A stretch of DNA of 64,000 nt, taken from contig SKCR01007814.1 of NCBI GenBank assembly GCA_019454045.1, positions 124,001 to 188,000 of the forward strand. Direction: 5' to 3'. Below the pieces are notes generated by a model, which saw nothing but the letters and a program-made list of their open reading frames with translations, had not been told where the DNA came from and did not search any database. Each line of letters opens with the position of its first letter. Position 1 is the first letter of the stretch. The position numbers and the translations under genes were made by a program. Shown in pieces: positions 1,015 to 52,557 of the stretch. Source of the stretch: Zanthoxylum bungeanum. Taxonomy: Eukaryota > Streptophyta > Magnoliopsida > Sapindales > Rutaceae.

Positions 1015-1097
1015 CTAAGTCCTCATGGGATCGATACTTTTTATACTACTTGAACGATATGTGCGCTTGCGTTATACACATATGATTACGCCGGTCA
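1015..1097 (+). repeat. Gypsy A 5' LTR, last 83 bp
   Basis: Matches the final part of the A 3' LTR (from about 8255 to 8337) with few changes and ends in CCGGTCA. The rest of this LTR was displaced upstream by copia K. The first 5 bases (ctaag) should be duplicated at the left end of K if K inserted here. Confidence 0.85.
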
Positions 1098-1103: not shown

Positions 1104-1121
1104 TGGCGCCGTTGCCGGGGA
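1104..1121 (+). promoter_or_regulatory. Primer binding site, tRNA-Asp type (gypsy A)
   Basis: The 18 bases TGGCGCCGTTGCCGGGGA are complementary to the 3' end of plant tRNA-Asp, the known primer for Athila/Tat-type gypsy elements. They lie 6 bases after the LTR end, as in gypsy B and C of this window. Confidence 0.9.
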
Positions 1122-1171: not shown

Positions 1172-1294
1172 GAGGTTGCACCACCAATTCCCATTCGAGA
1201 CAGTTGAGAAGGGAAAGGCGACAAGGCCAAGAAGCAATTGTTAACATGGAACCTGAACCTTTATAGGTTGCACCACCAATTCCCATTTGAGACA
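1172..1294 (+). repeat. Rearranged gag start with 29-bp direct duplication
   Basis: A 29-base segment beginning aggttgcaccaccaattccc occurs at about 1172-1201 and again at about 1266-1294. In gypsy B it is present once. The copy at 1172 replaces the part of gag that holds the B start codon, so A has lost the normal gag N-terminus and keeps only the later coding frame. Template switching during reverse transcription would produce this. Confidence 0.7.
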
Positions 1295-1305
1295 GAACCA
1301 TTCCG

Positions 1306-3738
1306 GTGGTTGATGGCCTCATTTCATGTATTGTACTTCCTCCCTTACCAGCAAATGCAGGTGACATCAAAACTTGCATTCAAATGATTCAGCAATCAGT
1401 GCAGTTTGGGGGAAAAGCAACTGAAGATCCTAATACCCACATCAGCAACTTCCTGGAAGTTTGCGGTACTTTCAATTACAACCGAGAAGCTGAAGAAGTA
1501 ATGAGACTGTGTGTTTTTCCATACTCCTTGAAGGACAGAGCTAAAGCTTGGCTACATTCACTTCCAGCAGGTTCTATCAGAACTTGGAACACTTTAGCCA
1601 CCAAATTTCTTGCAAAGTACTTTCCACCAGCCAAAACTGGAAAACTGAGGAATGACATCACATCCTTTGTACAACAAGAATCAGAAACTCTCTATGAAGC
1701 TTGGGAAAGGTACAAAGATTTGCTCCGGAAATGTCCTCACCATGAGATTCCAAAATGGCTTCGAGTCCAAACATTCTATAATGGACTTTCTGGAATAATG
1801 AGAACCACAATTGATGCTGCTGCTGGAGGAGCGTTGATGGCAAAAGGAGAAGAACAAGCTTGGGACCTAATCGAATAAATGGCCAACAACAATTCATTGT
1901 GGCCAACAGAAAGAAGCATGATTCAACGAATTGCTGGAATTTATGAAGTTGGAGCCAACTCAGCAGTCAATGCCAAACTGGATCAAATATGCAAATTCAT
2001 GGAGACTCTCGGCATGCAAAGTAACATTGGATCCCCAAATTCATCATATGGAGAAGCACCAGAACAAAATCAACTTGAAGAAACAGTGAATTATGTCAAC
2101 AATTTCAACAGACAGGGGAACAATCCATATTCCAACACCTACAATCCAGGGTGGAGGAATCATCCCAATTTCTCATGGAGCAATAATTCAGGGCAAAAGA
2201 ACTATTCACCACCAGGATTCCAACAGCAAAACCAGGAGTTTGAAAAAGAACCATAAATGAAAGAATGGATTGCAGAGATATTCAAAAAGCAACAAGCAGT
2301 ATATGATGCTATATTTCAAAGCCAATCTGCTTCCATCAAAGCACTGGAGAATCAAATCGGACAACTGGCCAATGCTCAGAGTTACAGACCGCCAGGTACC
2401 CTTTCTAGCAACACAGAACCAAATCCAAGGAACATGGGAAATGAGCAGTGTCATGCCATCATATTAAAAAGTGGTACTGAAATCAACAAAGATGTTGGAG
2501 CTAAAAAAACTGATGAAGATGTTCCAAAAGAAACAGGGCAACAAATGGAGGAAAAAGAAGCAAAGGAAAAAGAACAGACCACTCCACCTCCACTTTTTCC
2601 TCAGAGTCTTCAGAAAAACAAACTGGACAAGCAGTTTGCTCGTTTCCTGGAGGTGTTCAAAAAGCTGTACATCAACATCCCATTTGCATAAGCCTTAGAA
2701 CAAATACCTAGCTATGTAAAATTCATGAAAGACATTCTTTCACGAAAATGGAGATTGGGAGATTACGAGACAATAGCATTGACGGAAGAATGTAGCGCCA
2801 TTATTCAGAGGAAGCTTCCCCCGAAGTTGAAAGATCCTGGCAGTTTAACCATTCCTTACATCATAGGAGAACATAACTTTGGTAAGGCTTTATGTGATTT
2901 AGGTGCAAGTGTTAATTTGATGCCTTTTTCTATTTTCAGGAAACTGCAGATTGGAGAAACATTGCCCACCTCAGTTTCTCTACAACTTGCTGATAGAACA
3001 CTCGTATTTCCAAGAGGCGTTGTTGAGAATGTGTTGGTTAAGGTTGACAAATTCATTTTCCCAGAAGCTTTTATTATCCTTGATATGGAGGAAGACGCAG
3101 AAGTGCCAATCATCCTCTGGAGACCATTGTTGGCTACAGGTCGAACCATTATTGATGTACAAAAATGAGAATTAACCATGAGGGTACAGGTCCAGGATGT
3201 AACATTCAATGTTTTCAAGTCCATGAATTTCCCAGATGATGAAAAGAAGGAGGAATGTTTCAGACTTGATGTGATACACAGTACCATTCAGAACTCCAAT
3301 GCAATGCAAAGTTCTATTGACAAACTTAAAACATGTCAATTGCCTGTAGAGCCTAAAGATAAAGCATCTTTTGCACTGAAAGAGCCAATTCTTGCACTAC
3401 AAGCAACAGAAGAGAAAGAGATCCACCAGCTCAACAAATTAGAGGAATTTCACAATCAGTCTTTTGAGGATGCCAAATTGTACAAAGAAAAAGGCAAGAA
3501 AAGACATGATGAGAAGTTAGTGCGCATACAACTGGAACCAGGGCAGAAGGTACTGTTAAACAAATCAATGGTGAAATTCTTCCCATGGAAGCCAAAATCA
3601 CGGTGGTCAGGTCCATTTGTGATCACCAAAGTTTTACCAGATAGAGCCGTTGAGATACATGATCCTGACTCCAACAAAACTTTCAAGGTTAAAATCAGGC
3701 GTGTTAAGCACTACTGGGGAGAATCGTTTGAGCAATAA
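1306..3738 (+). pseudogene. Gag-protease-integrase tail, four in-frame stops (gypsy A)
   Basis: One frame runs the whole length and aligns with the intact gypsy B protein. Its order is: gag domain (AKAWLHSLPAGS region near 1540), a Q/N-rich spacer, an aspartic protease with DLGAS (about 2897-2911) and a flap/ILW-RP region near 3110, then the integrase C-terminal segment (GQKVLL...SRWSGPF, about 3541-3620). Stops are at 1876, 2254, 2689 and 3166. Three of these correspond to GAA or GGA codons in B, that is, single G-to-T changes. There is no frameshift. As in B, reverse transcriptase, RNase H and the integrase core are missing. The normal N-terminus is disrupted. Confidence 0.85.
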
Positions 3739-3810
3739 AAAGAAAGTGTCACACTTTCAGATCCAGCCTAATGATCGAGAAGTCAAGTCTAGCTGATGAC
3801 TTTAAACTTA

Positions 3811-3840
3811 GCACTCGCAGGGAGGCAACCCATGCAATTT
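3811..3840 (+). other. Conserved post-pol motif marking the cargo slot (gypsy A)
   Basis: Contains CAGGGAGGCAACCCATGCAA, found in the same position after the pol remnant in gypsy B (33827-33856) and on the minus strand in gypsy C (51182-51210). GGGAGGCAACCCA is a familiar sequence after pol in Athila-type elements. In this window everything unusual the gypsy elements carry begins just after it. Confidence 0.75.
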
Positions 3841-3909
3841 GTGTATATATTGTGATTTGGTATGATTTAATTTTGTGTGTTTAGTTTTTGCAGATTAAGA
3901 CATTTCAAG

Positions 3910-4458
3910 ATGGAAGAAGCTCTCGCAAGTCTTCGCAAGCAATTTCCTTCTCTCCCTCAAAAATCTCTGATGAAAGTTTACAGAACTCGCTTGGAATGGA
4001 TGAGGTTACTGATAATCAAATGTATTCCTACTGACATTCATTGGGTAATTGAAGCACGGGTCAGATTGGCAGGTGAGTCTTCTGACTCTTTTAGTTCACA
4101 TCTGTCTGGTTTTGGAAGAAGCACCTATGCAAAGAAACGTAGAGCTAAGCAAATGGGTGTTTGTTACAAATGTGTACGCTGGAATTACAATACTCGTTGT
4201 CGTTCTTTAGGAATGGTGTCTGATAATCGTGAAGATAAAATTAAATTCATTAGGGATGGCTTGAGTAAGGAGTCTGTAGATGTTATATCTTCGACTCTTG
4301 AGACGCATCCCAGTGGATATGTTCATATAGCCATTCACAAGTTACACACACAATTCCAAAAAGAAAGACAACAGTTAAGTATTGGGAATCTGACTCAAAA
4401 AGACCATGTTTGCCAATTTATAAGAAAATTGGATGGGAAGCTTGTCCTTGACGCATAG
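3910..4458 (+). CDS. Small basic Cys-cluster protein resembling plant-virus nucleic-acid-binding proteins (open copy, gypsy A)
   Basis: 182 residues from the ATG at 3910; an in-frame extension to 3877 is less likely because TTTTTGCAG, a good splice acceptor, lies between. Residues 67-80 read GFGRSTYAKKRRAK, then Cys85-x2-Cys88 and Cys97, then an acidic/basic helix with KFIRDG at 112-117. A GRS-Y/F-A-basic run, a short Cys cluster and an FI-x-x-G segment, in that order and spacing, are the signature of the nucleic-acid-binding proteins of carlaviruses and vitiviruses (Pfam Carla_C4 / Viral_NABP), which bind RNA and act as silencing suppressors. Both the N-terminal 65 residues and the C-terminal 60 lie outside that core. 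The frame is open here and has one stop in gypsy B. The assignment rests on motif reading, not a search. Confidence 0.6.
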   Translation: MEEALASLRKQFPSLPQKSLMKVYRTRLEWMRLLIIKCIPTDIHWVIEARVRLAGESSDSFSSHLSGFGRSTYAKKRRAKQMGVCYKCVRWNYNTRCRSLGMVSDNREDKIKFIRDGLSKESVDVISSTLETHPSGYVHIAIHKLHTQFQKERQQLSIGNLTQKDHVCQFIRKLDGKLVLDA

Positions 4459-4705
4459 ACGTTAATCAAGCTGTAAATTCTTGTACATATTATATCTCTT
4501 TATATTTTCCTAATAATTGTGATTTGTTTTGTTGTTTTGTTTTCTTTTCTCCGACAGGATCCAGACCTTTTTGACTATCACGATTTATTTTACTATTTTG
4601 CTACTAATCGTCATTTGGAAGATACTTGTGCTATTTTTACTCACCCTTTTCAGGTACTATAAATTCAACTCATCATTGCACTTTTGAAGACATCCAGAGT
4701 AAAAC
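4459..4705 (+). other. Spacer between the two cargo genes with an exon-like island
   Basis: A pyrimidine-rich stretch ends in CTCCGACAG at 4549-4557. It is followed by 96 bases (4558-4653) that stay open for 32 codons (starting DPDLFDYHDLFYYF) and end CCTTTTCAG followed by gtac. That is the form of an internal exon with acceptor and donor. Gypsy B has the same island at about 34575-34672, but with a 2-base insertion that breaks the frame. No product is recognised. The island may be a captured host exon or part of a spliced subgenomic RNA that leads into LOG. Confidence 0.4.
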
Positions 4706-5310
4706 ATGGAAGCCACTTCAAGAAGACGAGTTGAAAACATCTGTGTGTTTTGCGGTAGTAGTGTTGGTACTAAACCACAATATGTAGAAGCAGCACAAGA
4801 ATTGGGTCGAGTCTTAGCTGCAAGGAATATGCACTTAGTATATGGCGGAGGCAATCTTGGGCTAATGGGGATCGTTTCAAAGGCCATACAGGAAGGAGGC
4901 AGTCATGTTTTGGTAATCATCCCAAAACCCTTGGCAGAAGCAAATCTTATTGAATCATCAAACGGAGAGGAACTGATCGTGCCAGGTATGTCTGAACGAC
5001 TGGTAGAAATGATTAATTATGCTGATGCTTTTATTGCTTTGCCAGGTGGCTTAGGCACATTGGAGGAAAGTTTTATAGTGTTATATCTTGGGCGAACCTG
5101 AACATACACCAGAAACCAATTGGGCTGTTTAACGTTGATGGATTTTATGATTTTCTTTGTGTGTTTCTTGATGATGCCCGGAGAAATGGGTTCGTGTCAA
5201 AACCTTTAAAAGAACTCCTCTTTACTGCCAGAACTGCTCCGGATCTACTTGACCAACTCTTAGCCTATGAACCACAAGTTGACCATATCCTTTCAAATAT
5301 AAATTGGTAA
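4706..5310 (+). pseudogene. LOG: LOG-type cytokinin-activating phosphoribohydrolase, frameshifted (gypsy A)
   Basis: Starts MEATSRRRVENICVFCGSS and follows the LOG family through YGGGNLGLMG, the conserved Arg of MSERLVEM and the PGGxGTxxE motif (LPGGLGTLEES). A 2-base insertion near 5085-5090, relative to gypsy B, shifts the frame and gives a stop at 5099-5101. The downstream frame continues the family pattern (IHQKPIGLFNVDGF) and ends at TAA 5308. The basic, LxLxL-ending tail of the B copy is absent. The gene joins the element's 3' noncoding region at aattggtaag, a short sequence also found at the equivalent point of gypsy C. The full Gly motif YGGG is kept here but not in B. Confidence 0.85.
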
Positions 5311-6365
5311 GAAATAGCTGTGTAAGGAATTCTCACTCCTGATACGTATTTCAAACCTATTTCAAAATAAGTTAATTTTTGTTTATTTCCTTTTGAATTA
5401 TTTAATTTGTGAATTCTCCATAATACTGACTAAAATGAATCTTCATATGCTCAGTTAGCAGGTATTATCAACATACAAGGAAACAAACGGACATGAGCTA
5501 AAATTGAAAAGTTTGTAATATCCAGTGCTTTAGTTCATTTGGAGGAAGCATCTCAAAAAGTGATGGAATAAAAAAAAATAAATTACGTCTGGGATCCGAG
5601 TAATTAAGTCTGTAAGGGTGTTTTAACACCTAGTGCCCTAAAACCAACTGGTTTGGGAGTCACTGGCCCAAAGCTCGCTACATGGATAAAAAAGATGACA
5701 GAAAAAATATATATATCTGAAATCTGAGTAATTAAGTCCGTAGGGGTGTCTTAACATCTGGTGCCCTAAAGCCAACTGGTTTGGGAGCTACCGACCCAAC
5801 ACTCGCTACATAGATGGAAGATATTGTATATAAATAAAAAATAGAGAAAAAATCAAAGAGAAAAATCCGAAAAATCAGAAAATTTATTCCATTACTACAA
5901 AAAGGTGTGAATTCTGATAAAACTTTAGGACAAAAAAAATTACTCTCTTATCAACTATACTTATGATTGTTGTGGGCAAAAATGAGTTGTTTAATATTTT
6001 ACTGGCTGTGTATATGAAGCATGGTAAAAATAATCGGAGAATTTACTTTTTCAATAATTTAGAATGAAACAAAACAACTAGTAAATTGGAGTAGAAGTTT
6101 CACCTAATTAGTCTCTAACTTCTTTATTCTCTTTTCTCTTGTCTTTTTGCTTTTGTGTGCATTAGTTTCACTACCTTTTTACTTTTATAAAATGTTTGTG
6201 GGTATCATTGTTGTAAACCCTTACGAGACTACAACTCGTCCACTAGGGACACCTAGGGGTTTAAAGGCTTGTTGCATATGCTAAATTCAACCGTGATCCC
6301 TACGAAAATGGCTTTGTTAAATTTTATTATGTTATTTTATTTTGCTCGAGGACTAGCAAAATGTT
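5311..6365 (+). other. Gypsy A 3' noncoding region with tandem duplication
   Basis: No coding sequence. Homologous to 47222-48300 of gypsy C on the other strand, so it belongs to the element and not to the cargo. It contains two copies of a unit of about 100 bp at 5588-5697 and 5716-5815, each with the core gccctaaa(a/g)ccaactggtt. An A-rich run at 5570-5582 corresponds to the long poly-T of C. The end (tgctcgaggactagcaaaat) leads into the polypurine tract. Confidence 0.75.
5588..5815 (+). repeat. Two-copy tandem repeat (about 100 bp units)
   Basis: Units at 5588-5697 and 5716-5815, each with gagtaattaagtc(t/c)gta(a/g)ggtgt and (t/c)aactggtttgggag. The same pair is present in gypsy C at about 47777-47874 and 47900-48000 in reverse orientation, so the duplication predates the split of the two elements. 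Confidence 0.75.
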
Positions 6366-6378
6366 AGGTTTGGGGGTG
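6366..6378 (+). promoter_or_regulatory. Polypurine tract (gypsy A)
   Basis: AGGTTTGGGGGTG directly precedes the 3' LTR start TGATGAG. The same sequence, reversed, is at 47209-47221 in gypsy C. It would prime plus-strand DNA synthesis. Confidence 0.8.
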
Positions 6379-6663
6379 TGATGAGTGGTAAATGTATCAC
6401 TATTTTTCACTCATTTAACTTAATATTTTGTATAGTTTCTTGAGTTTTTTGAATATTTTGATGCGTTTTGTGTTATTTTGTAGATAAAGAAAGTTTCAGG
6501 ACATTCTGGAGGTGATTTGAAGCAAAATTGTGAAAATTGGCAAAAAGGGTATTTTGGTAATTTTGGAGCATCGCGACACCGAAACCCTTGGCGTCCCGAC
6601 CTCTAACGTGCGCCGGAGGCTGCTAACATGCACCAGGTCAACAAGTAAAAGTTTGACAAGTTT

Positions 6664-6860
6664 GACTTTGCTAACGTGAGCCGTGCCACGTGTCATCATC
6701 ACAAGCGATCCGCTAACGTGCGTCGCATGCCACGTGTCAAAAATTCAACGAGCCGACATCAGCCAGCCGCCTTGCCACATGTCACCTTATCGCTTCAGCC
6801 GCCCTGCCACGTGTCAGATAAGACCAGAAGCAACGAATCAGGAAATGCCACGTCAGCGCG
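6664..6860 (+). promoter_or_regulatory. CACGTG (G-box/ABRE-like) cluster in gypsy A U3
   Basis: Three perfect CACGTG motifs in the context gcCACGTGtca, plus near matches (CACATGTCA, CACGTCAG), lie within about 170 bp, ending some 70 bp before the TATA box. The equivalent segments of H and C have more copies. This is the core bound by plant bZIP and bHLH factors; regulation by light, ABA or stress is an inference. Confidence 0.6.
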
Positions 6861-6910
6861 TCGCGCCACACAAGTCTTGCGCGGCCCGACTCGCTCCACT
6901 TACTCGGGCC

Positions 6911-6917
6911 TATAAAT
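6911..6917 (+). promoter_or_regulatory. TATA box of gypsy A LTR
   Basis: TATAAAT in the context gggccTATAAATtcgg, at the same relative place as in LTRs B (29476), C (46401 and 53908, minus strand) and H (16578, minus strand). Confidence 0.65.
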
Positions 6918-7200
6918 TCGGCTCGAATTTTCAGTTTCAAATGTACCACATCCTCTGAATTCTCTGATGTAAATAGGGAGTTCTCTTCTTAGTGTTTTTT
7001 AAAATTTCAGTTTTAATTACGTTTTGTAATAGTAATTTTCTTCTATAATAGTAATAGTAATTTTCTTTCTTAAACTTTTTTACTCTTACTATTCAACCGT
7101 GAGGAGGTAACTTCTCCATGCTAAGGTAAAATGGTAATTCTTTTAATATTCCTATTTAGATTAATCTCCCTTAAAATATAATATATAAACTATTTAAAAT

Positions 7201-7434
7201 CTGACTTAATGAGGATACCGCCATACTGGTCGGTTGGTTATTCAATTTAATCTGGTTAAACCTGACTTAATGAGGATACCGCCATACTGGTCGGTTGGTT
7301 TATTTATTGTTCCGCCTTTATGGCTGGTTTATTTTGGTTCTGCCTTTATGGCTGGTTTATTGACAAATATTACCGCCTTAATGGCTGGTTGGATTTAATT
7401 TTACTTAATCAGGTTACCGCCTAAATGGTTGGTT
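7201..7434 (+). repeat. Short tandem repeats in gypsy A R/U5
   Basis: A 39-bp unit is exactly repeated at 7201-7239 and 7262-7300, followed by shorter related units with ccgcc(t/a)..atggctggtt. The set recurs in all gypsy LTRs here: 16087-16290 in H, 29800-29945 in B, and 45943-46120 and 53448-53620 in C. No function is known to me. Confidence 0.7.
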
Positions 7435-8337
7435 GGCAAAATTATCACAAGTATATATATTATATTATGGGAGATATCTAAATAGTAAATAGTAGAAGTT
7501 AATTCCTTTTACCTTAGCATTTCATTTTATTGTAATTTATTATTCCACAATTACTTTTTAGCAATTTTACTTTATGTCTTTTAAGTTCTTACCAACTTTA
7601 GCTATGTGTTGTAACTAAGTTAGTTATCTAGGGTTGTGATAAAATCTAATATCACCGGTTTATAAGGGGTTAGATTATAATTTGGGTAATTAAAAGATTT
7701 ATTTATTGAGTAATAATCTTAATACTTTTTATTAACTGGCCACTAATAAAATTGACTAGGTAAACTTAAAATGAACTAGACATAGGGATTTTAAGTTTAA
7801 AGACCTTAGACTCAATAGCCCACGATCTTCTTTGAGGATAGATAACCCTTTAATAGATTTCCTTACAGGATAGGAATATACCTGTTGGGCGGGGGTAGTC
7901 ATAATTGGAACTTAATCTTAATGAATCTAGGTAATTTGGTTGACATAGACATATGGTTCAATTGGATTATACTAGGTATTTGTAAATGATCATCGAAAAA
8001 GGCTTTTACATAATTTAATATTCCAGATTAATAAATCAATATTTTACCCAACTATAATATAACCACTTCATCTTTAAATAATATTGGAAGAATTCACAAC
8101 CCTATATAGTTTTATAATTTGAATTTTCATTAATCTACTTTCACGTAATTTAATTTACTTGTTTTAAATTTAGAATCATCGTCATTTTAAATCAATCAAA
8201 CAACCTGTTAGATACTAGTAATCACTCGACCTCATAAAATTAATAGATTAGGTTCTAAGTCCTCGTGGGATCGATATTTTTTATACTACTTGAACGATAC
8301 GTGCGCTTGCGTTATACGCGTGTGATTACGCCGGTCA

Positions 8338-15066: not shown

Positions 15067-15151
15067 AAGAAAACAAAAACAATAAGTAAAAAGAAAATTA
15101 GATACAAGTAAAAGTATCTAACCTCTAAACTAATAGTGAAAGATAAATAAG

Positions 15152-15169
15152 TCCCCGGCAACGGCGCCA
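15152..15169 (-). promoter_or_regulatory. Primer binding site, tRNA-Asp type (gypsy H)
   Basis: Reverse complement of TGGCGCCGTTGCCGGGGA, 6 bases from the LTR end at 15176. Confidence 0.9.
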
Positions 15170-15175
15170 ATAACT

Positions 15176-28849: not shown

Positions 28850-29368
28850 TGATGAGCGGAAAATATATCAATATTTACCGCCCCTTTAACTTAATATTTT
28901 GTTTAGTTTCTCGGGTTTGATGAACGTTTTGATGTGTTTTAGTTTATTTTGCAGATAAAATAATATCGGGTCTCAATGAAATCATTTAGGATGAAATATG
29001 GGTCAAATAAGGGCAATTATTGGACTTGATATTTTAATTTTGGAGACTGGAAACTTGAAAGGGCGTTTTGACGAAATGCAGTTTTGGAAATTCCAGTTTT
29101 GCACATCTGTCGTATTTTGGGCATACCTTTTTACTCAGATATTGGATTGAGCTGATTCAAGTTCCAGATTAAAGAAGACTCAAAGATCTACAACTTGGAA
29201 AGACAAAATAATTTCTAATTCTGAAGATTTCATGCCCGAAATTGATGAACTATCCAGAAGTGTGTAATGTGTAATTATTAAAGTCACTTTCAATCATTTT
29301 CAAAGCAAAAAAATAAATTAATAAAAAAATAATAAAAATTATCAAATCATCACCAAACATGATAAGAG

Positions 29369-29455
29369 ATTAGTGGAGCAATTAATAATGGATTTGGTGG
29401 AGCAATTAGTGGAGCAATTAGTGGAGCAATTAATAATTGATTTGGTGGATGATTT
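29369..29455 (+). repeat. Tandem gtggagcaatta repeat in B U3
   Basis: Four copies of agtggagcaatta or ggtggagcaatta alternate with tggatttggtgg or tgatttggtgg, ending some 20 bp before the TATA box. Present only in this LTR. Confidence 0.7.
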
Positions 29456-30052
29456 GATGGAGGCAAAATTTTGCCTATAAATACCAAGCCATTTCATTTG
29501 TAAAATTAATACTTTCTTCTAAGGAATTCCTTAAGAATACTAAGAAGATTGTATCTTGTTTGTTTATTTACAGCTTTCAGTAATTAATTTTCGTTTTCGC
29601 ACTTTCTTTTCTTTACTTTTCAGTTTTTACTTTCCGCAATTTACTTTTACGCACAGTAATTTTCTTTATTTAATTTTCAGTTTTTACTTTTCAGTAATGA
29701 GGAGGTAACTCCCATTTGCTGGGGTAAAAGGTAAAACTTTTATTACTAATATTTAGATTAATCTACCTTAATTATAATATATAAACTAGTTAAAACCTGA
29801 CTTAACGAGGATACCGCTATATTGGTCGGTTGGTAATTATTTACATTGGTTTTAACCTGACTAAACTGGATACCGCCTGATTGGTCGGTTGGTAATTAAT
29901 TATTAATTTGACTTAATCTGGATACCGCCTATATGGCTGGTTGGTAATTATCATGCAAAGTTAATATATTATATTAAGGGAGATATCTAAAATAGAAGTA
30001 ATAAAAGTGGATCCTTTTACCTCAGCATTTTCTTTTATTGTAATTTTACTTT

Positions 30053-30200
30053 ATTTACTTTTCAGCAATTTACTTTTCAGCAATTTACTTTTTAGCAATT
30101 TACTTTCAGCATTTACTTTTCAGCATTTAATTTTCAGTATTTAATTTCAGCATTTACTTTCAGCATTTACTTTCAGCATTTAATTTTCAGTATTTTACTT
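30053..30200 (+). repeat. Tandem tttacttttcagca repeat in B R/U5
   Basis: About ten imperfect 12-16 bp units, nine of which include TTCAG after a pyrimidine run. The units resemble 3' splice sites. Confidence 0.75.
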
Positions 30201-30980
30201 TATGTCTTTTATTTTATTTAAGTTTTTTTTACTACCCGTAAATATGTGTCGTAACTAAGCCAATTATCTGGGGTTGTGATGAAATCCAATATCACCGGTT
30301 TATAAAGGGTTAAATTATAGTTTGGGTAATTTAAAGGTTTACTTATTAAGTTTTAAGCTTAATGCTTCTTGTTGTCTGATCACCAATAAGATTGATGTGG
30401 TAAATCTAAAATGAACTAGACATAGGGATTTTAGGTTTCAGCCTTAGACTTAATAGCCCACGATCTTCCTTGAGGATAGATAACCCTTTAATAGATTTCC
30501 TTACAGGATAGACATATACCTGTCGGGCGGGGTAGCCATAATTGGAACTTAAACTTAATGAATCCAGATAATTTGGTTGACATAGACATATGGTTCAATT
30601 GGGTTAAACTGGGTATTTGCGTCTGACCATCGACATAGGCTTTTGCATAATTTAGTGTTCCAGGTTAGTAAACCGATTTATTACACAAACATAAAATAAC
30701 CACTTCATCTTTAAAATGATATTGGAAGAAATCACAACCCTAGATAGTTTTTAATATTGAATTTTCTTAAAACCTACTTTCGAACAATTTTATTTACTTG
30801 TTTTTAAATTTAGAATCGTCACCATTTCAAATCAATCAAACAACCTGTTAGATACTAGTAATCATTTGACTTCATAAAATTAATAGATTATATATTAAGT
30901 CCTCGTGGGATCGATATTTTTATACTACTTGAACGATACGTGCGCTTGTGTTATACGTGTGTTTACGCCGGTCAAGTTTT

Positions 30981-30998
30981 TGGCGCCGTTGCCGGGGA
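30981..30998 (+). promoter_or_regulatory. Primer binding site, tRNA-Asp type (gypsy B)
   Basis: TGGCGCCGTTGCCGGGGA, 6 bases after the LTR end at 30974. Confidence 0.92.
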
Positions 30999-31105: not shown

Positions 31106-33787
31106 ATGAGACGAACCAGAAGCTTTGAACTCCGATCCCTTGACCCAAAAATTGAAAGAACCATCAGACAGTTGAGAAGGGAAAAGCGAGAAGGCCAAGA
31201 AGCTTTAGTCAACATGGAACCTGAACCGTTGGAGGTTGCACCACCAATTCCCATTCGAGACAGAACCATTCCGGTGGTTGACAGACTCATTTCCTGTATT
31301 GTACTTCCTCCCTTACCAGCAAATGCGTGTGACATCAAAACATGCATTCAGATGATTCAGCAGTCTGTTCAGTTCGGGGGGAATGCAACTGAAGATCCTA
31401 ATGCCCGCATCAGTAACTTCCTGGAAGTTTGCGGTACTTTCAACTACAACAGAGCATCAGAAGAAGCAATGAGACTGCGAGTTTTCCCATACTCCTTGAA
31501 GGACAGAGCTAAAGCTTGGCTACATTCACTAACAGCAGGTTCCATCACAACTTGGAACACTCTAGCCACCAAATTCCTTGCAAAATACTTTCCACCGGCC
31601 AGAACTGCAAAGTTGAGGAATGACATCACATCCTTTGTACAACAAGATTCAGAATCCCTCTGCGAAGCTTGGGAAAGGTACAAAGATTTGCTCCGGAAAT
31701 GTCCTCACCATGAGATTCCAAAATGGCTTCAAGTCCAAACATTCTATAATGGACTTTCTGGAATAATGAGAACCACAATTGATGCTGCTGCTGGAGGAGC
31801 ACTAATGGCAAAAGGAGAAGATCAGGCTTGGGATTTAATTGAAGAAATGGCCAACAATAATTCTTTGTGGCCAACAGAAAGGAGCATGATCCAAAGAATC
31901 GCAGGAATTTATGAAGTTGGAGTCAACACAGCACTGAATGTCAAGCTGGATATGATTTGCAAAAATCTGGAAACTCTTAACATGAAGGTTAATGGTGGAT
32001 CCACAAGTTCATCATATAAAGGAGCACCAGAACCAGTTCAGCATGAAGAGACAGTGAATTTTGTCAACAATTTCAACAGACAGGGGAACAATCCATATTC
32101 CAACACCTACAACCCAGGGTGGAGGAACCATCCCAATTTTTCATGGAGCAACAATTCAGGCCAACAACAAAACTATCCACCACCTGAATTCCAACAACAG
32201 AACAAAAGCCAGGAGCAGGCAAATGAACCAGGAATAACAGAAGTGTTGACCCACTTGAAAAAGTTAGAAGAAAAACACGACTCTCAAGCAGCAAGATATG
32301 ATGCTATGTTTCAATCCCAATCAGCATTAATTCAAAGTCAATCTGCTTCTATTAAAGCACTGGAGAATCAAATGGGACAACTGGCAAATGCTCAGAGTTA
32401 CAGACCGCCAGGTACCCTTCCTAGTAACACTGAGGCAAATCCAAGAAACATGGGGAAGGAACAATGTCATGCCATCATGTTAAAAAGCGGTACTGAAATC
32501 AACAAAGATGTTGGAGCCAAAACAACTGCTGAGGAAGTTCCAAAAGAAACAAAGCAACAGATGGAGGGAAAAGAAGCAAAGGAAAAAGAACAGATCACTC
32601 CACCTCAACCTTTTTCTCAACGTCTTCAGAAGAACAAATTGGACAAGCAGTTTTCTCGGTTCCTGGAAATCTTCAAAAAGCTGCATATCAACATTCCATT
32701 TGCAGAAGCGTTGGAAAAAATGCCCACCTATGCCAAATTCATGAAAGATATTCTTTCACGAAAGCGGAGATTGGTAGATTACGAGACAGTAGCATTATCA
32801 GAAGAATGCAGTGCTATCATTCAGAGGAAACTTCCCCCGAAGTTGAAAGATCCTGGCAGTTTCACTGTTCCTTGCGTCATAGGAGAACATAACTTTGGTA
32901 AGGCTTTATGTGATTTAGGTGCAAGTGTTAACTTGATGCCTTTTTCTATTTTCAAGAAATTACAGATTGGAGAAACAATGCCAACTTCAGTCTCACTACA
33001 ACTTGCTGATAGAACGCTCGTATTTCCAAGAGGCGTAGTTGAGGATGTGCTGGTCAAGGTTGACAAATTCATTTTCCCAGCAGATTTTATTGTCCTTGAT
33101 ATGGAGGAAGACGCAGACGTGCCAATCATCCTCGGGAGACCGTTCTTGGCTACAGGTCGAACCATTATTGATGTACAAAAAGGAGAACTAACCATGAGGG
33201 TACAGGACCAAGAAGTAACATTCAATGTTTTCAAGGCCATGAATTTCCCAGATGATGAAAAGAAGGAGAATTGTTTCAAACTCGATGTGATGCACAGTAC
33301 CATTCAGAACTCTGATGAAAGACAAAGTTCTACTGACAAACTTAAAACATGTCAATTGCCTGTGGAGCCTAAAGATAAAGCATCTTTTACAATGAAAGAG
33401 CCAATTCTTTCTCTACAAGCAATAGAAGAGAAAAAGTTCCACCAGCTCAACGAATTGGAGGAATTTCACAATCAGCCTTTTGAAGATGCTAAATTGTACA
33501 AAGAAAAGGGCAAGAAAAGAAATGATGAGAAGTTAGTGCGCATACAACTGGAACCAGGGCAGAAGGTACTGTTAAACAAATCAAGGGTGAAATTCTTCCC
33601 ATGGAAGCCAAAATCACGGTGGTCAGGTCCATTTGTGATCACCAAAGTTTTACCAAATAGAGCCGTTGAGATACATGATCCTGACGCTAACAAAACTTTC
33701 AAGGTTAAAAACAAGCGTGTCAAACACTACTGGGGAGAATCATTTGAGCGACAAAAAGAAAGTGTTACACTTTCAGATCCAGCTTAA
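31106..33787 (+). CDS. Fused gag-protease-integrase-tail protein, intact (gypsy B)
   Basis: 893 residues from the first ATG (31106); the frame is open from 31082. Order: retrotransposon gag domain at about 100-225 (AKAWLHSLTAGSITTWNTL, EAWERYKDLLRKCP), a Q/N-rich spacer at 300-500 with repeated QSQSA, no zinc knuckle seen, an aspartic protease at about 590-700 (DLGAS near 602, ILGRPFLATGR near 674), then directly an integrase C-terminal segment at 785-885 (PGQKVLLNKSRVKFFPW, SRWSGPFVITKVLP). Athila-like pol normally has RT, RNase H and the integrase core between the last two; here they are cleanly missing in frame. The product could form particles and mature itself but cannot copy or insert DNA, so a helper is needed. 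A carries the same fusion, so the deletion is ancestral. Confidence 0.9.
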   Translation: MRRTRSFELRSLDPKIERTIRQLRREKREGQEALVNMEPEPLEVAPPIPIRDRTIPVVDRLISCIVLPPLPANACDIKTCIQMIQQSVQFGGNATEDPNARISNFLEVCGTFNYNRASEEAMRLRVFPYSLKDRAKAWLHSLTAGSITTWNTLATKFLAKYFPPARTAKLRNDITSFVQQDSESLCEAWERYKDLLRKCPHHEIPKWLQVQTFYNGLSGIMRTTIDAAAGGALMAKGEDQAWDLIEEMANNNSLWPTERSMIQRIAGIYEVGVNTALNVKLDMICKNLETLNMKVNGGSTSSSYKGAPEPVQHEETVNFVNNFNRQGNNPYSNTYNPGWRNHPNFSWSNNSGQQQNYPPPEFQQQNKSQEQANEPGITEVLTHLKKLEEKHDSQAARYDAMFQSQSALIQSQSASIKALENQMGQLANAQSYRPPGTLPSNTEANPRNMGKEQCHAIMLKSGTEINKDVGAKTTAEEVPKETKQQMEGKEAKEKEQITPPQPFSQRLQKNKLDKQFSRFLEIFKKLHINIPFAEALEKMPTYAKFMKDILSRKRRLVDYETVALSEECSAIIQRKLPPKLKDPGSFTVPCVIGEHNFGKALCDLGASVNLMPFSIFKKLQIGETMPTSVSLQLADRTLVFPRGVVEDVLVKVDKFIFPADFIVLDMEEDADVPIILGRPFLATGRTIIDVQKGELTMRVQDQEVTFNVFKAMNFPDDEKKENCFKLDVMHSTIQNSDERQSSTDKLKTCQLPVEPKDKASFTMKEPILSLQAIEEKKFHQLNELEEFHNQPFEDAKLYKEKGKKRNDEKLVRIQLEPGQKVLLNKSRVKFFPWKPKSRWSGPFVITKVLPNRAVEIHDPDANKTFKVKNKRVKHYWGESFERQKESVTLSDPA

Positions 33788-33826
33788 CGTTCGAGAAGTC
33801 AAGTCTGGCTGACGACTTTAAACTTA

Positions 33827-33856
33827 GCGCTAGCAGGGAGGCAACCCATGCAATTT
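33827..33856 (+). other. Conserved post-pol motif marking the cargo slot (gypsy B)
   Basis: Same CAGGGAGGCAACCCATGCAA word as in gypsy A and C, 40 bases after the stop of the fused ORF. The next 70 bases end in TTTTTTGCAG, a possible splice acceptor, 17 bases before the ATG of the following gene. Confidence 0.75.
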
Positions 33857-33926
33857 TTGTATATATTGTGATTTGGTGTGATTTAATTTTGTGTGTTTAG
33901 TTTTTTGCAGGTTAAGACATTTCAAG

Positions 33927-34475
33927 ATGGAAGAAGCTCTCGCAAATCTTCACAAACAATTTCCTTCTCTCCCTAAAAAATCTATAATGAAAGTTTACAA
34001 AGCTCGCTTGGAACGGATGAGGTTACTGACGATCCATGGTGTTCCTAATGACATTCGTTGGGTAATTGAAGCACGAGTCTGATTGGCAGGTGATTCTTCA
34101 GACTCTTTTATTTCACATCTGCCTGGTTTTGGAAGATGCACATATGCAAAGAAACGAAGAGCTAAGAAAATGGGTGTTTGTTACAAATGTGCATGTTGGA
34201 ATTGCAATACTCGTTGTCGTTCTTTAGGATTGGTGTCTAATAATCGCGAAGACAAAATTAAATTCATTAGGGATGGCTTGAGTAAGGAGTCTTTAGATGA
34301 TATATCTTCGACTCTTGAGACGCATCCCAGTGGATATGTTCACAAAGCCTTTCGCAGATTACATACACAATTTCAAAAAGAAAGACAACAGTTAAGTCTT
34401 GGGAATCTGACTCAAAAAGACCCTGTTTGCCAATTTATAAGAAAATTGGATGGGAAACTTGTCTTTGACGCATAG
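33927..34475 (+). pseudogene. Virus-NABP-like small basic Cys-cluster ORF with one stop (gypsy B)
   Basis: Same length and frame as the open copy in gypsy A (182 codons), interrupted only by TGA at 34080 where A has AGA. The core is present after the stop: GFGRCTYAKKRRAK, then CYKCACWNCNTRC with five cysteines (A has three), then KFIRDG. As in A this resembles the nucleic-acid-binding proteins of carla- and vitiviruses. Differences from A are mainly substitutions with no indel, which suggests the frame was kept until recently. Confidence 0.6.
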
Positions 34476-34740: not shown

Positions 34741-35394
34741 ATGGAAGCCACTTCAAGAAGACGAGTTGAAAATATTTGTGTGTTTTGCGGTAGTAGTGTT
34801 GGTACTAAACCACAATACATAAAAGCAGCACAGGAATTGGGTCGAGTCTTAGCTGCAAGGAATATGCACTTAATATATGGCGGATGCAATCTTGGACTTA
34901 TGGGGATCGTTTCAAAAGCCGTACAGGAAGGAGGTAGTAACGTTTTAGGAATCATCCCAAAACCCTTGGCAGAGGCAAATCTTATTGGATCATCAAACGG
35001 AGAGGAACTGATGGTGCCAGGTATGTCTGAACGACTGGTAGAAATGATTAACCGTGCTGATACTTTTATTGCTTTGCCAGGTGGCTTGGGCACATTGGAG
35101 GAAATTTTTATAGTACTATCTTGGGCGAACCTGAACATACACCAGAAACCAATTGGGCTGTTTAACGTTGATGGATTTTATGATTTTCTTTGTGTGTTTC
35201 TTGATGATGCCTGGAGAAATGGATTCATATCTAAACCTTTAAAAGAACTCCTATTTACTGCCAGAACTGCTCCGGATCTAATAGACCAACTCTTAGCCTA
35301 TGAACCACAAATTGACCATGTCCTTTCAAAGATAAATTGGTCTGAGGATGATCGTGGTAAGAGGCGTCGTGTTAATCTGGATCTTAACCTTTAA
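34741..35394 (+). CDS. LOG: LOG-type cytokinin riboside 5'-monophosphate phosphoribohydrolase, full-length and intronless (gypsy B cargo)
   Basis: 217 residues, the usual length of plant LOG enzymes, which release active cytokinin bases from their nucleotides in the cytosol. Seen: CVFCGSS at 13-19, the Rossmann loop YGGCNLGLMG at 46-55, Arg98 in MSERLVEM, PGGLGTLEE at 113-121 (the PGGxGTxxE signature), NVDGFY at 142-147. Native plant LOG genes have several introns; none are here, so it was captured from mRNA. Two oddities: Cys49 replaces a Gly of the conserved YGGG (gypsy A keeps YGGG), and the C-terminus ends in a basic stretch plus LDLNL (213-217), an LxLxL pattern as in EAR repression motifs. 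The ATG at 34741 matches the A copy. Activity is uncertain because of Cys49. Confidence 0.88.
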   Translation: MEATSRRRVENICVFCGSSVGTKPQYIKAAQELGRVLAARNMHLIYGGCNLGLMGIVSKAVQEGGSNVLGIIPKPLAEANLIGSSNGEELMVPGMSERLVEMINRADTFIALPGGLGTLEEIFIVLSWANLNIHQKPIGLFNVDGFYDFLCVFLDDAWRNGFISKPLKELLFTARTAPDLIDQLLAYEPQIDHVLSKINWSEDDRGKRRRVNLDLNL

Positions 35395-35425
35395 TCTCCT
35401 GTAGAATTTCAGCTAACCAGGTATT

Positions 35426-45050: not shown

Positions 45051-47208
45051 TGACCGGCGTAAACACACACGTATAACGCAAGCGCACGTATCGTTCAAGT
45101 AGTATAAAAATATCGATCCCACGAGGACTTAATTCCTACTGTTGTTATTAATTATTGAATCTATTTATTTACAAATATCTAATTAAAGGGAGAATAGAAT
45201 TGATTGCTTGATTGATTTGGTTGATTGAAGATTTGCTAAATAAATAAAAAGATAAAAGAAAATACTAAGGAAAATAATAGACACAAAAATCTAAGGTTGT
45301 GATTTCTTTTAATATCATTTAAAAGATGAAGTGATTATTTTATGTTTGTGTAATAAATCAGTTTACTAACCTGGAACACTAAATTATGTAAAAGCCTCTT
45401 CCGATGGTCAATTACAAATACCCAGTATAACCCATTAAACCATATTCCTATGTCAACCACATTACCTGGATTCATTAAGTCTAAGTTCCAATTATGGCTA
45501 CCCCCGCCCGACAGGTATATTCCTATCCTGTAAGGAAATCTATTAAAAGGGTTATCTATCCTCAAGGAAGATCGTGGGCTATTAAGTCTAAGGCTGAAAC
45601 CTAAAATCCCTATGTCTAGTTCATTTTAGATTTACCATTTCAATCTTATTGGTGATCAGACAACAAGAAGCATTAAGCTTAAGACTTAATAAATAACCTT
45701 TTAAATTACCCAACTATAAAATAATCCCTTATAAACCTGTGATATTAAAAGTCATCACAACCCCTAATTAACTAACACATAACTAGGACTATAAAAATAA
45801 AATACATAAAATAAAATGACATAAGGTAAAATGCTGAAAAGTAAATTACAATAATAAAATGCTAAGGTAAAAGGAATTACTTTTACTACTACTAATTTAG
45901 ATATCTCCCATAAAATAATATATAAACTTGTGTTGATTTACCAACCGACCAGTCTGGCGGTATCCAGATTAAGTCAAATTAAGTCCAACCAGCCATTAAG
46001 GCGGAACCAAAAATAAATTTACCAACCGACCAGTCTGGCGGTATCCTTGATTAGTCAGGTTTAAAACAGATTAAAATTAAATTACCAACCGACCAATATA
46101 GCGGTATTCCTTATTAAGTCAATATTTTAATTAGTTAATATTATTTTTTTAAGGGAGATTAATCTAAATAGCAATAGTAGAAGAATTACCTTTCACCCTA
46201 GCTGAGGAAATTATTTCAACATGGTGAATAGTAAAAACTGTAAAAAGTAAAAAGTAAAAATTAAATTACTATTATTACAAAAAGTAATTAAAATTATTTA
46301 CAAAACTAAAATAAAAAAAACTAAAAAATAAAAATAAAAATTCTAGAGAGAGAAATCAAGAGAGAGAAAGGTACACTTAAAAACTGAAAATTCGCGGCCT
46401 ATTTATAGCAAAAATAATTTACTGTTCGGGTATTGTTCTCGCGTCGCGACGCTAAGGCGTTGCGCGTCGCGACGCTCATTTGTCGACGTGGCACAATGAG
46501 ACGGCGACACGTAGCAAGGCGGCTGACTGTACAACTGACACGTGTCAAGGCGGCTAATTCTCAATTATTATGATGACGTCATGCTGACGTCATGCTGACG
46601 TGGAGGCGACGTGGCGATGACGTGGCGTGGCGGCTGACTGTACAACTGTCGGCACAATGGGATGGCGACACGTGGCGACACGTGTCAAGTTGTGATTGGC
46701 TGAGGCTGACGTGGCATGTTGACTCGGTTGACCTGCTGACGTGGACGATGATGTGGCATGACACGTGGCAAGGTTGACTCGTTGACCGCTGACATGGCTG
46801 ATGACGAGGCGACACGTGTCAAGTCTGAGTGTCGGCAGCATATGATGATGACACGTGGCACGGCGCACGTTAGCAGATCGGCTGTGATGGTGACACGTGG
46901 CACGGCGCATTTTAGCAAAGTCAAACTTTTCAAATTGTTGACCGTTGACCATGGCGCATTTTAGCAGAACCGGCACACGCTGGGCGTCGCGGCGCGAAGT
47001 GCTCTAGCGTCGCGACGCGCAGAAGACCAAAATATCCCTGATGACGCATTTTTGTCCGGTTTTGCCCCAAATTGCCTCCAGTGCTGTCCAAACTTTATTT
47101 ATCTGCAAAATAACAATAAAACACATCAAAACGTTCATAAAACTCAAGAAACTATACAAAATGTTAAGGTAAATGAGTGGGAAATAGTGATATAAATACC
47201 ACTCATCA
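45051..47208 (-). repeat. Gypsy C 3' LTR
   Basis: 2158 bp from tgaccggcg to cactcatca. TATA box on the minus strand at 46401-46407. CACGTG array at 46530-46905. Pairs with 52558-54712; differences are mostly single-base indels in A/T runs. Confidence 0.92.
46430..47020 (-). promoter_or_regulatory. CACGTG array flanked by GCGTCGCGACGC palindromes (C 3' LTR)
   Basis: Seven perfect CACGTG motifs plus several TGACGTGG, TGACGTCA and TTGACC words within about 380 bp, just upstream of TATA in the direction of transcription. On both sides lie the 12-bp perfect palindrome gcgtcgcgacgc (46441-46452, 46464-46475 and 47011-47022) or near copies. The same layout is at 53944-54530 in the 5' LTR. Confidence 0.65.
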
Positions 47209-47221
47209 CACCCCCAAACCT
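47209..47221 (-). promoter_or_regulatory. Polypurine tract (gypsy C)
   Basis: cacccccaaacct is the reverse complement of AGGTTTGGGGGTG, as in gypsy A. Confidence 0.8.
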
Positions 47222-48001
47222 AACATTTTGCTAGTCCTCGAGCAAAATACAAAATAAAATAACATAATAAAATTTAACTAAGCCATTTTCGTAGGGATCA
47301 CGGTTGCATTTAGCATATGCAACAAGCCTTTAAACCCCTAGGTGTCCCTAGTGGACGAGTGTAGTCTCGTGAGGGTTTACAGCAATGATACCCACAAACA
47401 TTTTACAAAAGTAAAAAGGTATTAAAACTAATGCACACAAAAGCAAAAAGACAAGCGAAAAGAGAATAAAGAAAGATAGTGACTAATCAGGTGAAAATTC
47501 TACTCCAAGTTACTAGTTGTTTTGTTTCTTTCTAAATTACCGAATAAGTAAATTCTCCGATTATTTTTACCATTCTCCATATACACAGCCAACAAAATAT
47601 TAATCAACTCATTTTTGCCCACAACAGTCATAAGTGCAGTTGATAAGAGAGTAATATTTTTGTCCTAAAGTTCTATCAGATTTCACACCTTTTTGTAGCA
47701 ATGGAATAATTTTCTGATTTTTCTGATTTTTTCTTTGATTTTTTCTCTATTTTTTATTTATATACAATACCTTCCGTCTATGTAGCGAGCTTTGGGTTGG
47801 TGGCTCCCAAACCAGTTGGCTTTAGGGCACCAGGTGTTAAGACACCCCTACGAACTTAATTACTCAGACTTCAGATATATATATTTTTGCAGCATCTTCG
47901 ATCCATGTAGCGAGCTTTGGGCCAATGACTCCCAAACCAGTTGGTTTTAGGGCACTAGGTATTAAAATACCCTTACAGACTTAATAACTCGGATCTCGGA
48001 C

Positions 48002-48035
<34 letters not shown>

Positions 48036-48607
48036 CCATCACTATTTAGAGATGCTTCCTCCAATTAAACTATAGCACTGAATATTACAAACTTTTCAAT
48101 TTTAGCTCATGTCCGTATGTTTCCATGTAAGTTCATAATACCTGTCAACTGAACATATGAAGATCCAATTTAGTCTGTGTTAAGGAGAATTCACAAATTA
48201 AATAATTCAAAATGAAATAAACAAAAATTAACTTATTTCGAAATAGGTTTGAGATACGTCTCAGGAGCGGAAATTCCTTACTCGGCTATCTCTTACCAAT
48301 TCCACCTTTTTAGTCAAAATAAAAACACAAAAAATGCAAAATATTTTTGTAATTTTGAAAAATTTTCAATTTTATTTTTTTTTTTTTTTGAAAAATTTTG
48401 AACTAAAAATAAAAAATAACATACTACTAAAAACAAGGTACTAATCAATTAAAGAACTCCTATTGATTTTAACGGAATTTTGTTGCATAAATGAAAAATT
48501 TTAACGGAAAGTATTAACATAAAAGTTATGCACCCCCAAACCTAAATTAAGCATTGTCCCTAATGCGTTCAAAACATAAACAAAATGTAGGAACAATGGT
48601 ACCGAAT
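47222..48607 (-). other. Gypsy C 3' noncoding region
   Basis: Up to about 48300 it is homologous to gypsy A 5306-6365, including the two-copy repeat (about 47777-47874 and 47900-48000) and the run of 29 T at 48004-48032 that corresponds to a shorter A-run in A. From 48300 to 48607 it is AT-rich, unmatched, and follows the ORF2 stop. A second T run lies at 48376-48390. Confidence 0.7.
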
Positions 48608-49638
48608 TTATGCGTCAGTCTCGTCCTCGTCGCTATCTGAAAGTGGATATGGTGGCATCTGATTCTCCTGCATTCCCATATGTCGTGCCATTCTTTGCTG
48701 CAGTTGAACCAAATATCTCAGCTTCGTTTCCACTCTGGCGACTCTCTCAGGCAAGGTATGAGACTGTGTTGCTCTGCGTGACTGTGAGGGTGGCTGCTGT
48801 GGAGCAGCTGCAGGTGCTGAGGAAGATGGTCCAGTAGGTATTTGTCTCTCTGTTCGGAGTTGCTGGATTATGCGGGCTGTTAAGGCTGTCATGGGTTGCA
48901 TTGGTTCTTCTCTGGGATCAACAGGAACCATACCCAAAGTACAAAGTGATGTGATCAGGTAGCAGTATAACAGACCTGCCTGTGTTGATCTTGCAGCCCA
49001 GGCTATATTGTTGAGATTAACTGTCCAACATCAATAGTAAAGCCCTCCAGAATGCAATATAACAAGATCATGCGTTCCTTTGTGACATAAGTAATGTGTG
49101 ATCCTGGTAACAACGATCGGGTCACAAAATGGAACCATACCTTTGCTTCAGGTTTGAGTAATCTTGAACTTATCTTCTGGTGTTCCCCATTACTACTCAA
49201 TACCCAAGCCGCATTAGGAACACACAATGTTTCTGTTAAATGTGTAATATCAATCTCCTCCTTAACTGCAGAGTATTCATCAGCTTCCATATCAGGTAAT
49301 CCATAGAATCTGTTAATTGTAGTAGGATCAAATGCTACTTGTTGATTTCTAACCATTGCTACATATGCACGATGCTCATAAGCATTAGCGTAAAACTCCC
49401 GTACAATAGCTGTATAAGCGGGGTGAGGCTGCAAACAAAGCTTTTGCCAGTGTCTGGTTGCAATGATCCTGTCAATCTCTGGGAATAGTCCGGGGCAGAT
49501 TTCAAAACCCCTCTCCATAATATGAATTTTTCTAGTCATTCCCTCTTCGAATCTCCTTTCTGCAGCTGCCGAAACAAATTTTGTAGTGTCAAAACTGGGT
49601 TCAGCAGATGTTGAAGCTCTGAATCTCTTTGGTGGCAT
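48608..49638 (-). pseudogene. ORF2 of gypsy C: putative plant transposon protein domain, one frameshift
   Basis: Starts at the ATG at 49638 (MPPKRFRASTSAEPSFDTTKF) and is open to 49003 (211 residues). FYANAYEHRAYVAMVRNQQV, INRFYGLPD and MILLYCILEG are typical of the 'putative plant transposon protein' domain (Pfam PF20167, from memory), common in plant repeats and of unknown function. After VGQLIS the frame changes by one base: the alternative frame reads NNIAWAARSTQAGL and continues to the stop at 48608, with a Ser/Pro/Gln-rich part, a predicted coiled coil (RVARVETKLRYLVQLQQR) and an acidic end (SDSDEDETDA). Total about 340 residues. The single indel could be a sequencing error. Confidence 0.75.
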
Positions 49639-50880: not shown

Positions 50881-51181
50881 ATGCCTAGCGTCGCGACACT
50901 AGGTTTAGGGTTAGGGTTTTGACTCGGGATTTTTTTTTTTTTTTGGCAAAACCATGTCTTGCGACGGATAAATCCATAGGGACGCCTCTTAAGAAGTGTC
51001 TTTTTACTCGGTCGTCTCCTGGATCAACTTTGTATCTTCGTGATTTTGTCAAATTTTTATTTTGAAAATCCCGCTTGTACTGGCCTCTTTGTCCTGAAAA
51101 ATTCCGTTTTTAATTTTTCCTGCAAAACTAACACAAAAAATTAAAAAGTTCACACAAAATATGAAAAATAAATTACAACAA
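50881..51181 (-). other. Noncoding stretch after the cargo-slot motif (gypsy C)
   Basis: No gene. In the element's direction it begins AT-rich after the slot motif, with ttagttttgcag (splice-acceptor-like) near 51118-51130, and ends in the T/A run near 50931-50944. It corresponds in position to the short introns or spacers ahead of the virus-like ORF in A and B. Confidence 0.5.
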
Positions 51182-51210
51182 AATTGCATGGGTTGCCTCC
51201 CTGCTAGCGC
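51182..51210 (-). other. Conserved post-pol motif marking the cargo slot (gypsy C)
   Basis: Reverse complement of GCGCTAGCAGGGAGGCAACC..., the same as 33827-33856 in gypsy B. Lies 40 bases after the ORF1 stop. Confidence 0.75.
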
Positions 51211-51251
51211 TAAATTTTCGTCTTCAGCCAGACGTGACTGAAATTTATCTG

Positions 51252-52421: not shown

Positions 52422-52533
52422 TTGTAAGTCACCTGAAATCAAAAGAAAGAAATAAAAATTACAGATAAAAATAAAGAAAATTAGATACAAGTAAATTAGA
52501 TAGCTTCAAAATTAACAACTCAAGAAATATAAG

Positions 52534-52551
52534 TCCCCGGCAACGGCGCCA
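52534..52551 (-). promoter_or_regulatory. Primer binding site, tRNA-Asp type (gypsy C)
   Basis: Reverse complement of TGGCGCCGTTGCCGGGGA, 6 bases from the 5' LTR. Confidence 0.92.
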
Positions 52552-52557
52552 AAAACT

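Follow-up and report, generated by a model that had tools for sequence, protein, structure and literature searches.

Athila-type Ty3/gypsy retrotransposon copies in Zanthoxylum bungeanum carrying a homologue of flexivirus nucleic-acid-binding proteins and a LOG-type gene

The stretch of Zanthoxylum bungeanum DNA analysed here, 64,000 nucleotides long and referred to as the window, holds two Ty3/gypsy elements with the anatomy of the Athila type, A and B, in each of which a remnant of the pol region is followed by a small, virus-like ORF and then by a gene of the LOG type (Table 1). As the initial annotation had stated, order and spacing are the same in both elements (small ORF at 3910-4458 and 33927-34475, LOG gene at 4706 to about 5310 and 34741-35394), and either gene has one open copy out of two: the small ORF of B contains one stop, and the LOG gene of A is frameshifted by 2 bp and truncated at its 3' end. 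When the window was searched by tblastn at E<=1, two copies of each gene, those of A and B, and no others were found. Element A is colinear with B, the two being 89-94% identical across coding and spacer parts. Apart from the remnant listed in Table 1, the left LTR of A has been replaced by sequence from another element, and soon after the LOG gene of B, at about 35425, other transposon sequence starts, the 3' end of B lying outside the view. Repeated copies of another transposon family (1-959, 35425-40144, 55063-57661 and 63045-64000) fill much of the window, and it is this family that interrupts both the left LTR of A and the region behind the LOG gene of B.

Table 1. Coordinates of the elements and genes discussed, numbered within the window
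Feature	Position	Strand	Remarks
A, left LTR remnant (3' end)	1015..1097	+	92.8% identity to 8255-8337
A, primer binding site TGGCGCCGTTGCCGGGGA	1104..1121	+	exact match
A, broken gag - protease-like - integrase C-terminus	1198..3738	+	tblastn; 89% DNA identity to B from 1198
A, post-pol leader common to B and C	3781..3893	+	ends at splice-acceptor-like AG of TTTTTGCAG
A, virus-like nucleic-acid-binding ORF, 182 codons, open	3910..4458	+	Pfam Carla_C4, Viral_NABP
A, LOG gene, truncated and with frameshift near 5082	4706..~5308	+	2-bp frameshift; junction removes 3' end
A, 3' region from C-type element	5302..6378	+	polypurine tract immediately before 6379
A, right LTR	6379..8337	+	matches LTRs of B, C and fourth element
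Fourth related element	13565-17299	-	LTR, primer binding site, gag pieces; broken off ahead of accessory region
B, left LTR (TG...CA)	28850..30974	+	
B, primer binding site	30981..30998	+	exact 18-base match
B, single 893-codon ORF: gag - protease-like - integrase C-terminus	31106..33787	+	
B, post-pol leader to splice-acceptor-like AG, common to A and C	33797..33910	+	
B, virus-like ORF	33927..34475	+	length as in A; one in-frame stop; 4/4 cluster Cys
B, LOG gene, 217 codons, open, intronless	34741..35394	+	
C, complete sister element	45051..54712	-	LTRs 99.07% identical; 5-bp target repeat CCTCT in flanks
C, accessory ORF, Transposase_32 (PF20167)	49003..49638	-	128.9 bits, cut-off 45
GCCACGTGTC repeats	6685-6815, 16647-16975, 46667-46901, 54171-54405		

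The assignment to the Athila type is based on the primer binding site, the LTRs and the gene layout, as A and B are without the RT, RNase H and integrase domains that a phylogeny would use. The 18-base primer binding site, which is complementary to tRNA-Asp and lies 6 nt behind the CA of the LTR, occurs exactly in A, B, C and one further element, that is, four times in the window where none is expected. A tRNA-Asp primer binding site close to the LTR end, 5 bp behind it, has been described for Calypso and Diaspora. With Athila, Calypso and Diaspora the present elements share the sequence and place of this site, long LTRs and an accessory gene in sense orientation that lies behind pol and ahead of the 3' LTR; they differ from them in that this place is taken by an env-like or Athila ORF-1 protein there and by a relative of flexivirus nucleic-acid-binding proteins (NABPs) plus a LOG gene in A and B, and in that A and B have no RT. 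By name or domain typing, the nearest polyproteins are Ty3-type gag-pol proteins. In the 893-aa product of B, Retrotrans_gag is matched with 82.1 bits, protease families stay below the Pfam cut-off, and no RT, RNase H or integrase-core match was obtained from Pfam at E<=1. The enzymes that an autonomous element encodes (RT, RNase H and integrase) are thus not all present in B, with which A is colinear. Among seven related proteins inspected, one (P0284) likewise has the protease joined to an integrase C-terminus, and the RT-less reading frame may therefore not be confined to the window, unless P0284 is a gene-model error.

Element C informs on how the accessory region is delimited. It is a young and non-autonomous, Athila-like element, whose 389-codon ORF at 51252-52421 has weak similarity to the polyprotein of B. 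According to the alignment, A, B and C have a common leader as far as an AG and diverge thereafter; the left block of A stops at 3893, the AG of TTTTTGCAG, and those of B and C stop alike. The leader of A at 3781-3893 corresponds to 51239-51120 on the minus strand in C, and the motif GGGAGGCAACCCAT is found exactly in all three elements. A and C have in common this leader and everything from 5302 onward, the Transposase_32 ORF lying between the two in C. On the right side of A, identity with B extends to 5308 and identity with C begins at 5302, the overlap being the 7 bases AATTGGT. Hence, A is a recombinant of a B-like and a C-like element, which is most simply attributed to template switching during reverse transcription; the junction at 5302-5308 is also what removes the C-terminus of LOG in A. 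Judged from these breakpoints, the accessory region behaves as an exchangeable cassette or putative exon that starts at the splice-acceptor-like AG.

For the small ORF, the initial annotation had proposed a comparison with the Carla_C4 and Viral_NABP profiles, and the ORF of A passes both Pfam cut-offs, with 28.9 bits (cut-off 20.9) and 26.6 bits (cut-off 23), respectively. Among 5.8 billion proteins searched, 348 homologues were found at E<=1, and a precomputed Carla_C4 annotation is present on all 120 homologues among the matches listed. When 54 members of the family were scanned singly, 48 matched Carla_C4 and 48 Viral_NABP at E<=1e-3, six missing each, with best E-values of 1.5e-8 and 1.2e-8. 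The length is well kept, being exactly 182 aa in 66 and 180-184 aa in 79 of the best 120 of the 348 homologues, and mean column identity in the 54-sequence alignment is 67%. Named species among the matches listed (n=6) are Xanthoceras, Populus (two), Acer, Rhamnella and Orobanche, so that the virus-like gene is present across several eudicot orders; homologue clusters contain up to 566 and 315 members. As in the Cys-rich NABPs of carlaviruses and other flexiviruses, a basic motif (KKRRAK, residues 75-80) adjoins a cluster of four cysteines (Cys 85, 88, 93 and 97), and the Pfam scores lie above the cut-offs. Across 100 aligned sequences the basic motif is retained together with the cluster (spacing CX2CX4CX3C), which is complete in 81 of them; at one of the cluster positions A has Tyr, being among three sequences with Tyr there, where 97/100 have Cys. 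The viral fingers are reported as CX2CX9CX4C and CX2CX12CX4C (PMC3689765 among other sources), and the finger spacing CX2CX9-12CX4C was not found in the plant family. Due to this other Cys spacing, the plant protein is regarded as a homologue that may work alike and is not classed as a carlavirus protein. Further differences are its length (182 aa, compared to about 100-140 aa for the viral proteins), an extra conserved C-terminal third and the fact that it is encoded by a retrotransposon.

AlphaFold models are poor (pLDDT 62.8 and 67.9, pTM 0.37 and 0.35), their quality being too low for fold assignment, so that viral fold matches were used by kind only and none singly. With the model of pLDDT 67.9 as query, Foldseek gave 31 matches to viral models at E<=10 and none at E 0.001; the top eight are all flexivirus proteins, as are 19 of the 31, and several are named RNA silencing suppressor. 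Several of the matched species presumably belong to the flexiviruses, to which they were assigned here. By sequence, no match to the small ORF was obtained in the PDB (best E 0.19), and a scan of viral contigs with three queries gave no relative. From its profile matches, the small ORF is homologous to the flexivirus nucleic-acid-binding proteins, and published accounts describe these viral relatives as suppressors of RNA silencing (PMC7588395, PMC12172455, PMC3689765), in line with the initial annotation.

Among bacterial and archaeal genome contigs, the sole match to the small ORF is DAIEQH010000041.1 (3330 bp, here L001). It is filed as Candidatus Nomurabacteria yet encodes a plant-type retrotransposon and, judged by its content, is likely plant contamination of a bacterial bin. 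In L001, an integrase (rve and H2C2 domains, integrase C-terminus) is followed by a 182-codon ORF that begins 205 nt after the pol stop, and a pyrimidine-rich CAG lies within the interval corresponding to the leader end; its integrase protein aligns to A and B by the C-terminal part only. The L001 protein passes Viral_NABP (34.2) and, with 19.8, is just under the Carla_C4 cut-off of 20.9. The flanks of L001 are in turn matched by the flanking translation of two other homologues, on the upstream side by that of P0013 and on the downstream side by that of P0047 (0/300 shuffles as good, each), and the same two flanks gave no match to A (151/300 and 247/300 shuffles as good). Compared with L001, dN/dS of the ORF is 0.278 for A and 0.302 for B, there is no indel in 182 codons, and differences at codon positions 1, 2 and 3 number 47, 35 and 69 for A and 46, 28 and 69 for B, an excess at the third. 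Taken together, the order of integrase and ORF in L001 and the dN/dS values of 0.28 and 0.30 without an indel mark the ORF as an accessory gene that is old in the lineage and has been under selection. The case of only two copies, both evolving neutrally, which had been named beforehand as speaking against any such function, therefore does not apply to the small ORF. That the virus-like ORF could be a host gene trapped next to the element was also considered and is unlikely given L001 and clusters of up to 566 members. Within the window the picture is different: A-B dN/dS is 0.64 (Fisher p 0.20), which is near neutral, and changes assigned to branches are 5 silent and 18 replacing in A and 5 and 10 in B, with 11 undecided. 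Both copies in the window are damaged and, by their substitution patterns, are decaying now in a lineage that was earlier constrained.

The second gene is open in B, and its product matches Lysine_decarbox with 120.4 bits, aligns over its full length with Arabidopsis At2g37210 (E 2.2e-58) and is 50-55% identical to named Populus LOGL10 proteins. PGGxGTxxE and YGGG are motifs of LOG proteins. The Lysine_decarbox domain and the PGGxGTxxE stretch are both present, PGGxGT and the flanking Glu residues being kept, and at one Gly of the YGGG stretch, which is retained in all other aligned LOGs (23/24), B has Cys. Unlike plant LOG phosphoribohydrolase genes, those of A and B are intronless and located inside an LTR element. 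From its sequence, the gene product is predicted to release active cytokinin. As proposed initially, Ka/Ks was determined between A and B for both ORFs: in LOG, differences are biased towards silent ones (dN/dS 0.29, Fisher p 5.5e-4), the value for the virus-like ORF being the near-neutral one given above.

The initial interpretation is supported in part. While the small ORF does occur in Athila-type elements elsewhere and under purifying selection, a fixed pairing with LOG has less support: in L001 no LOG gene lies behind the virus-like ORF, in C another gene occupies the slot, and linkage outside the window amounts to two leader matches. These are P0130 and P0131, LOG homologues with 63-65% identity, whose leaders match the translated A/B spacer upstream of LOG (0/300 shuffles as good, each); the leader of one further LOG homologue, P0138, did not match it (73/300 and 77/300 shuffles as good). 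The two leaders could represent element-borne LOGs elsewhere or a common 5' untranslated region of a host LOG. L001 resembles the spacer between the small ORF and LOG weakly (1/200 shuffles as good for A, 16/200 for B). Two LOG copies in one window are not proof of a fixed pair, and LOG is likely a later pick-up by the element. In the annotated LOG gene model P0128 from Xanthoceras, two LOG halves are separated by about 45 residues with similarity to the gag-protease linker of A/B-type elements; this model is either a further LOG associated with gypsy sequence or an artefact of annotation.

Overall, A and B are RT-less copies of an Athila-type Ty3/gypsy element, in which the flexivirus-suppressor homologue probably shields the element RNA from host silencing and the LOG gene, likely captured later from the host, is predicted to release active cytokinin. 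Such an element would move by enzymes supplied from a complete relative, and its accessory exon would be expressed through splicing to the AG just upstream (3893/33910). The small basic, zinc-finger-like protein would then be a nucleic-acid binder that counteracts silencing or, alternatively, acts on transcription, like p12 of chrysanthemum virus B, and LOG could raise cytokinin in the cell expressing the element.

What LOG contributes can be read in another way. The virus-like gene could be a conserved accessory and LOG a one-off, useless passenger, that is, a processed host transcript which was captured by template switching in one subfamily and multiplied with it, and we regard this as possible, if somewhat doubtful. 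That plant LTR elements transduce genes is well documented (PMC7264820), L001 does without LOG, and both copies have suffered, the one of A through frameshift and truncation and the one of B through Cys at a conserved Gly. The excess of silent differences between A and B argues against a passenger; a shared functional past before capture could not produce it, but host-like constraint on one lineage could. Two further points against it are the A/B spacer found with the P0130 and P0131 LOGs in other sequences and the position of the element LOGs in a tree of A, B and 111 of 120 listed hits, in which A and B fall into a 30-tip clade (support 0.965) with 0 NCBI-labelled tips, 17/111 being labelled in the whole tree; P0130 and P0131 belong to the same clade. 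Labels were assigned by hand, and 9 hits were left out by length, including the NCBI-labelled P0128 and P0136. A clade without labelled tips is the appearance expected of masked transposon genes. LOG is plausible as a growth-promoting add-on, yet may be a passenger.

The role of the small protein admits another reading as well, according to which it is no silencing suppressor but serves Athila elements in the packaging, nuclear transport or transcription of their RNA, and the flexiviruses either took theirs from such elements or have only the basic/Cys module in common with them. This we consider unlikely, even though the C-terminal third of the plant proteins, past the Viral_NABP match that ends at residue 120, is conserved as well, and one viral relative, p12 of chrysanthemum virus B, is a nuclear transcription activator that causes overgrowth (PMC7588395). 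The antisense accessory proteins of Retand, which are proposed regulators, point in the same direction (PMC11963269). These TRP28 ORFs resemble the small ORF as conserved accessory proteins with predicted nucleic-acid binding between pol and the 3' LTR, and differ from it in their antisense orientation, domain and lineage. On the other side, the Viral_NABP match covers 88 residues and so goes beyond the Cys/basic core, and the published viral relatives are suppressors. Most economically, the small ORF would encode an Athila accessory protein with a counter-silencing or regulatory role; as the gene recurs in many plants and its changes mostly preserve the protein, it likely serves the element.

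That the genes are no cargo at all but chance neighbours of LTR remains is suggested by the nested transposons of the window and is nevertheless highly improbable, being ruled out by an arrangement repeated in A, B and, for the virus-like gene, L001, with the same order and spacing after the integrase remnant in A and B and a position before the polypurine tract and right LTR in A.

A more far-reaching version of the counter-silencing reading can be formulated, in which Athila elements of flowering plants would carry a virus-type silencing suppressor as a standard accessory, by common descent with RNA viruses and in an exchangeable exon slot, to which one branch added LOG, blinding silencing and pushing host cell division in the manner of a viral accessory operon. 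In this full form it appears quite unlikely to us. To our knowledge, no function has been assigned to the accessory ORFs of Athila elements. A conserved protein related to tested viral suppressors provides a named and directly assayable candidate for the escape of LTR retrotransposons from RNA silencing. It also points to gene flow, in one direction or the other, between positive-strand RNA viruses and retrotransposons, and LOG aboard would represent a hormone gene carried by a retrotransposon.

With respect to known systems, a precedent for such capture is a Gypsy element of orchids with an AlkB m6A demethylase, likewise a Ty3/gypsy element with a captured gene of a kind also found in flexiviruses and proposed to counter host control (PMC9289625); the gene is a different one and reported from Phalaenopsis only, whereas the virus-like gene described here occurs in several eudicot orders. 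Reviews on accessory ORFs and gene capture, as far as their accessible text goes, name neither a virus-like gene of this type nor LOG (PMC7264820, PMC13317346). In the same vein, no carlavirus-type protein or LOG joined to an LTR element was found in the open-licence literature, although Steinbauerova et al. (2011), who treated extra ORFs, could describe the ORF. In the survey of Neumann et al. (2019), extra ORFs were counted from 250 codons up, according to its accessible part, so that an ORF of 182 codons would fall below this minimum.

Finally, the LTRs themselves contain a repeated 10-mer, GCCACGTGTC, with 14 occurrences where 0 are expected, all of them inside four LTRs of the A/B/C-type family and none in the left LTR of B. 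The 10-mer includes CACGTG, the core of the G-box, and the arrays are possibly bZIP/bHLH-responsive repeats of the U3 region.
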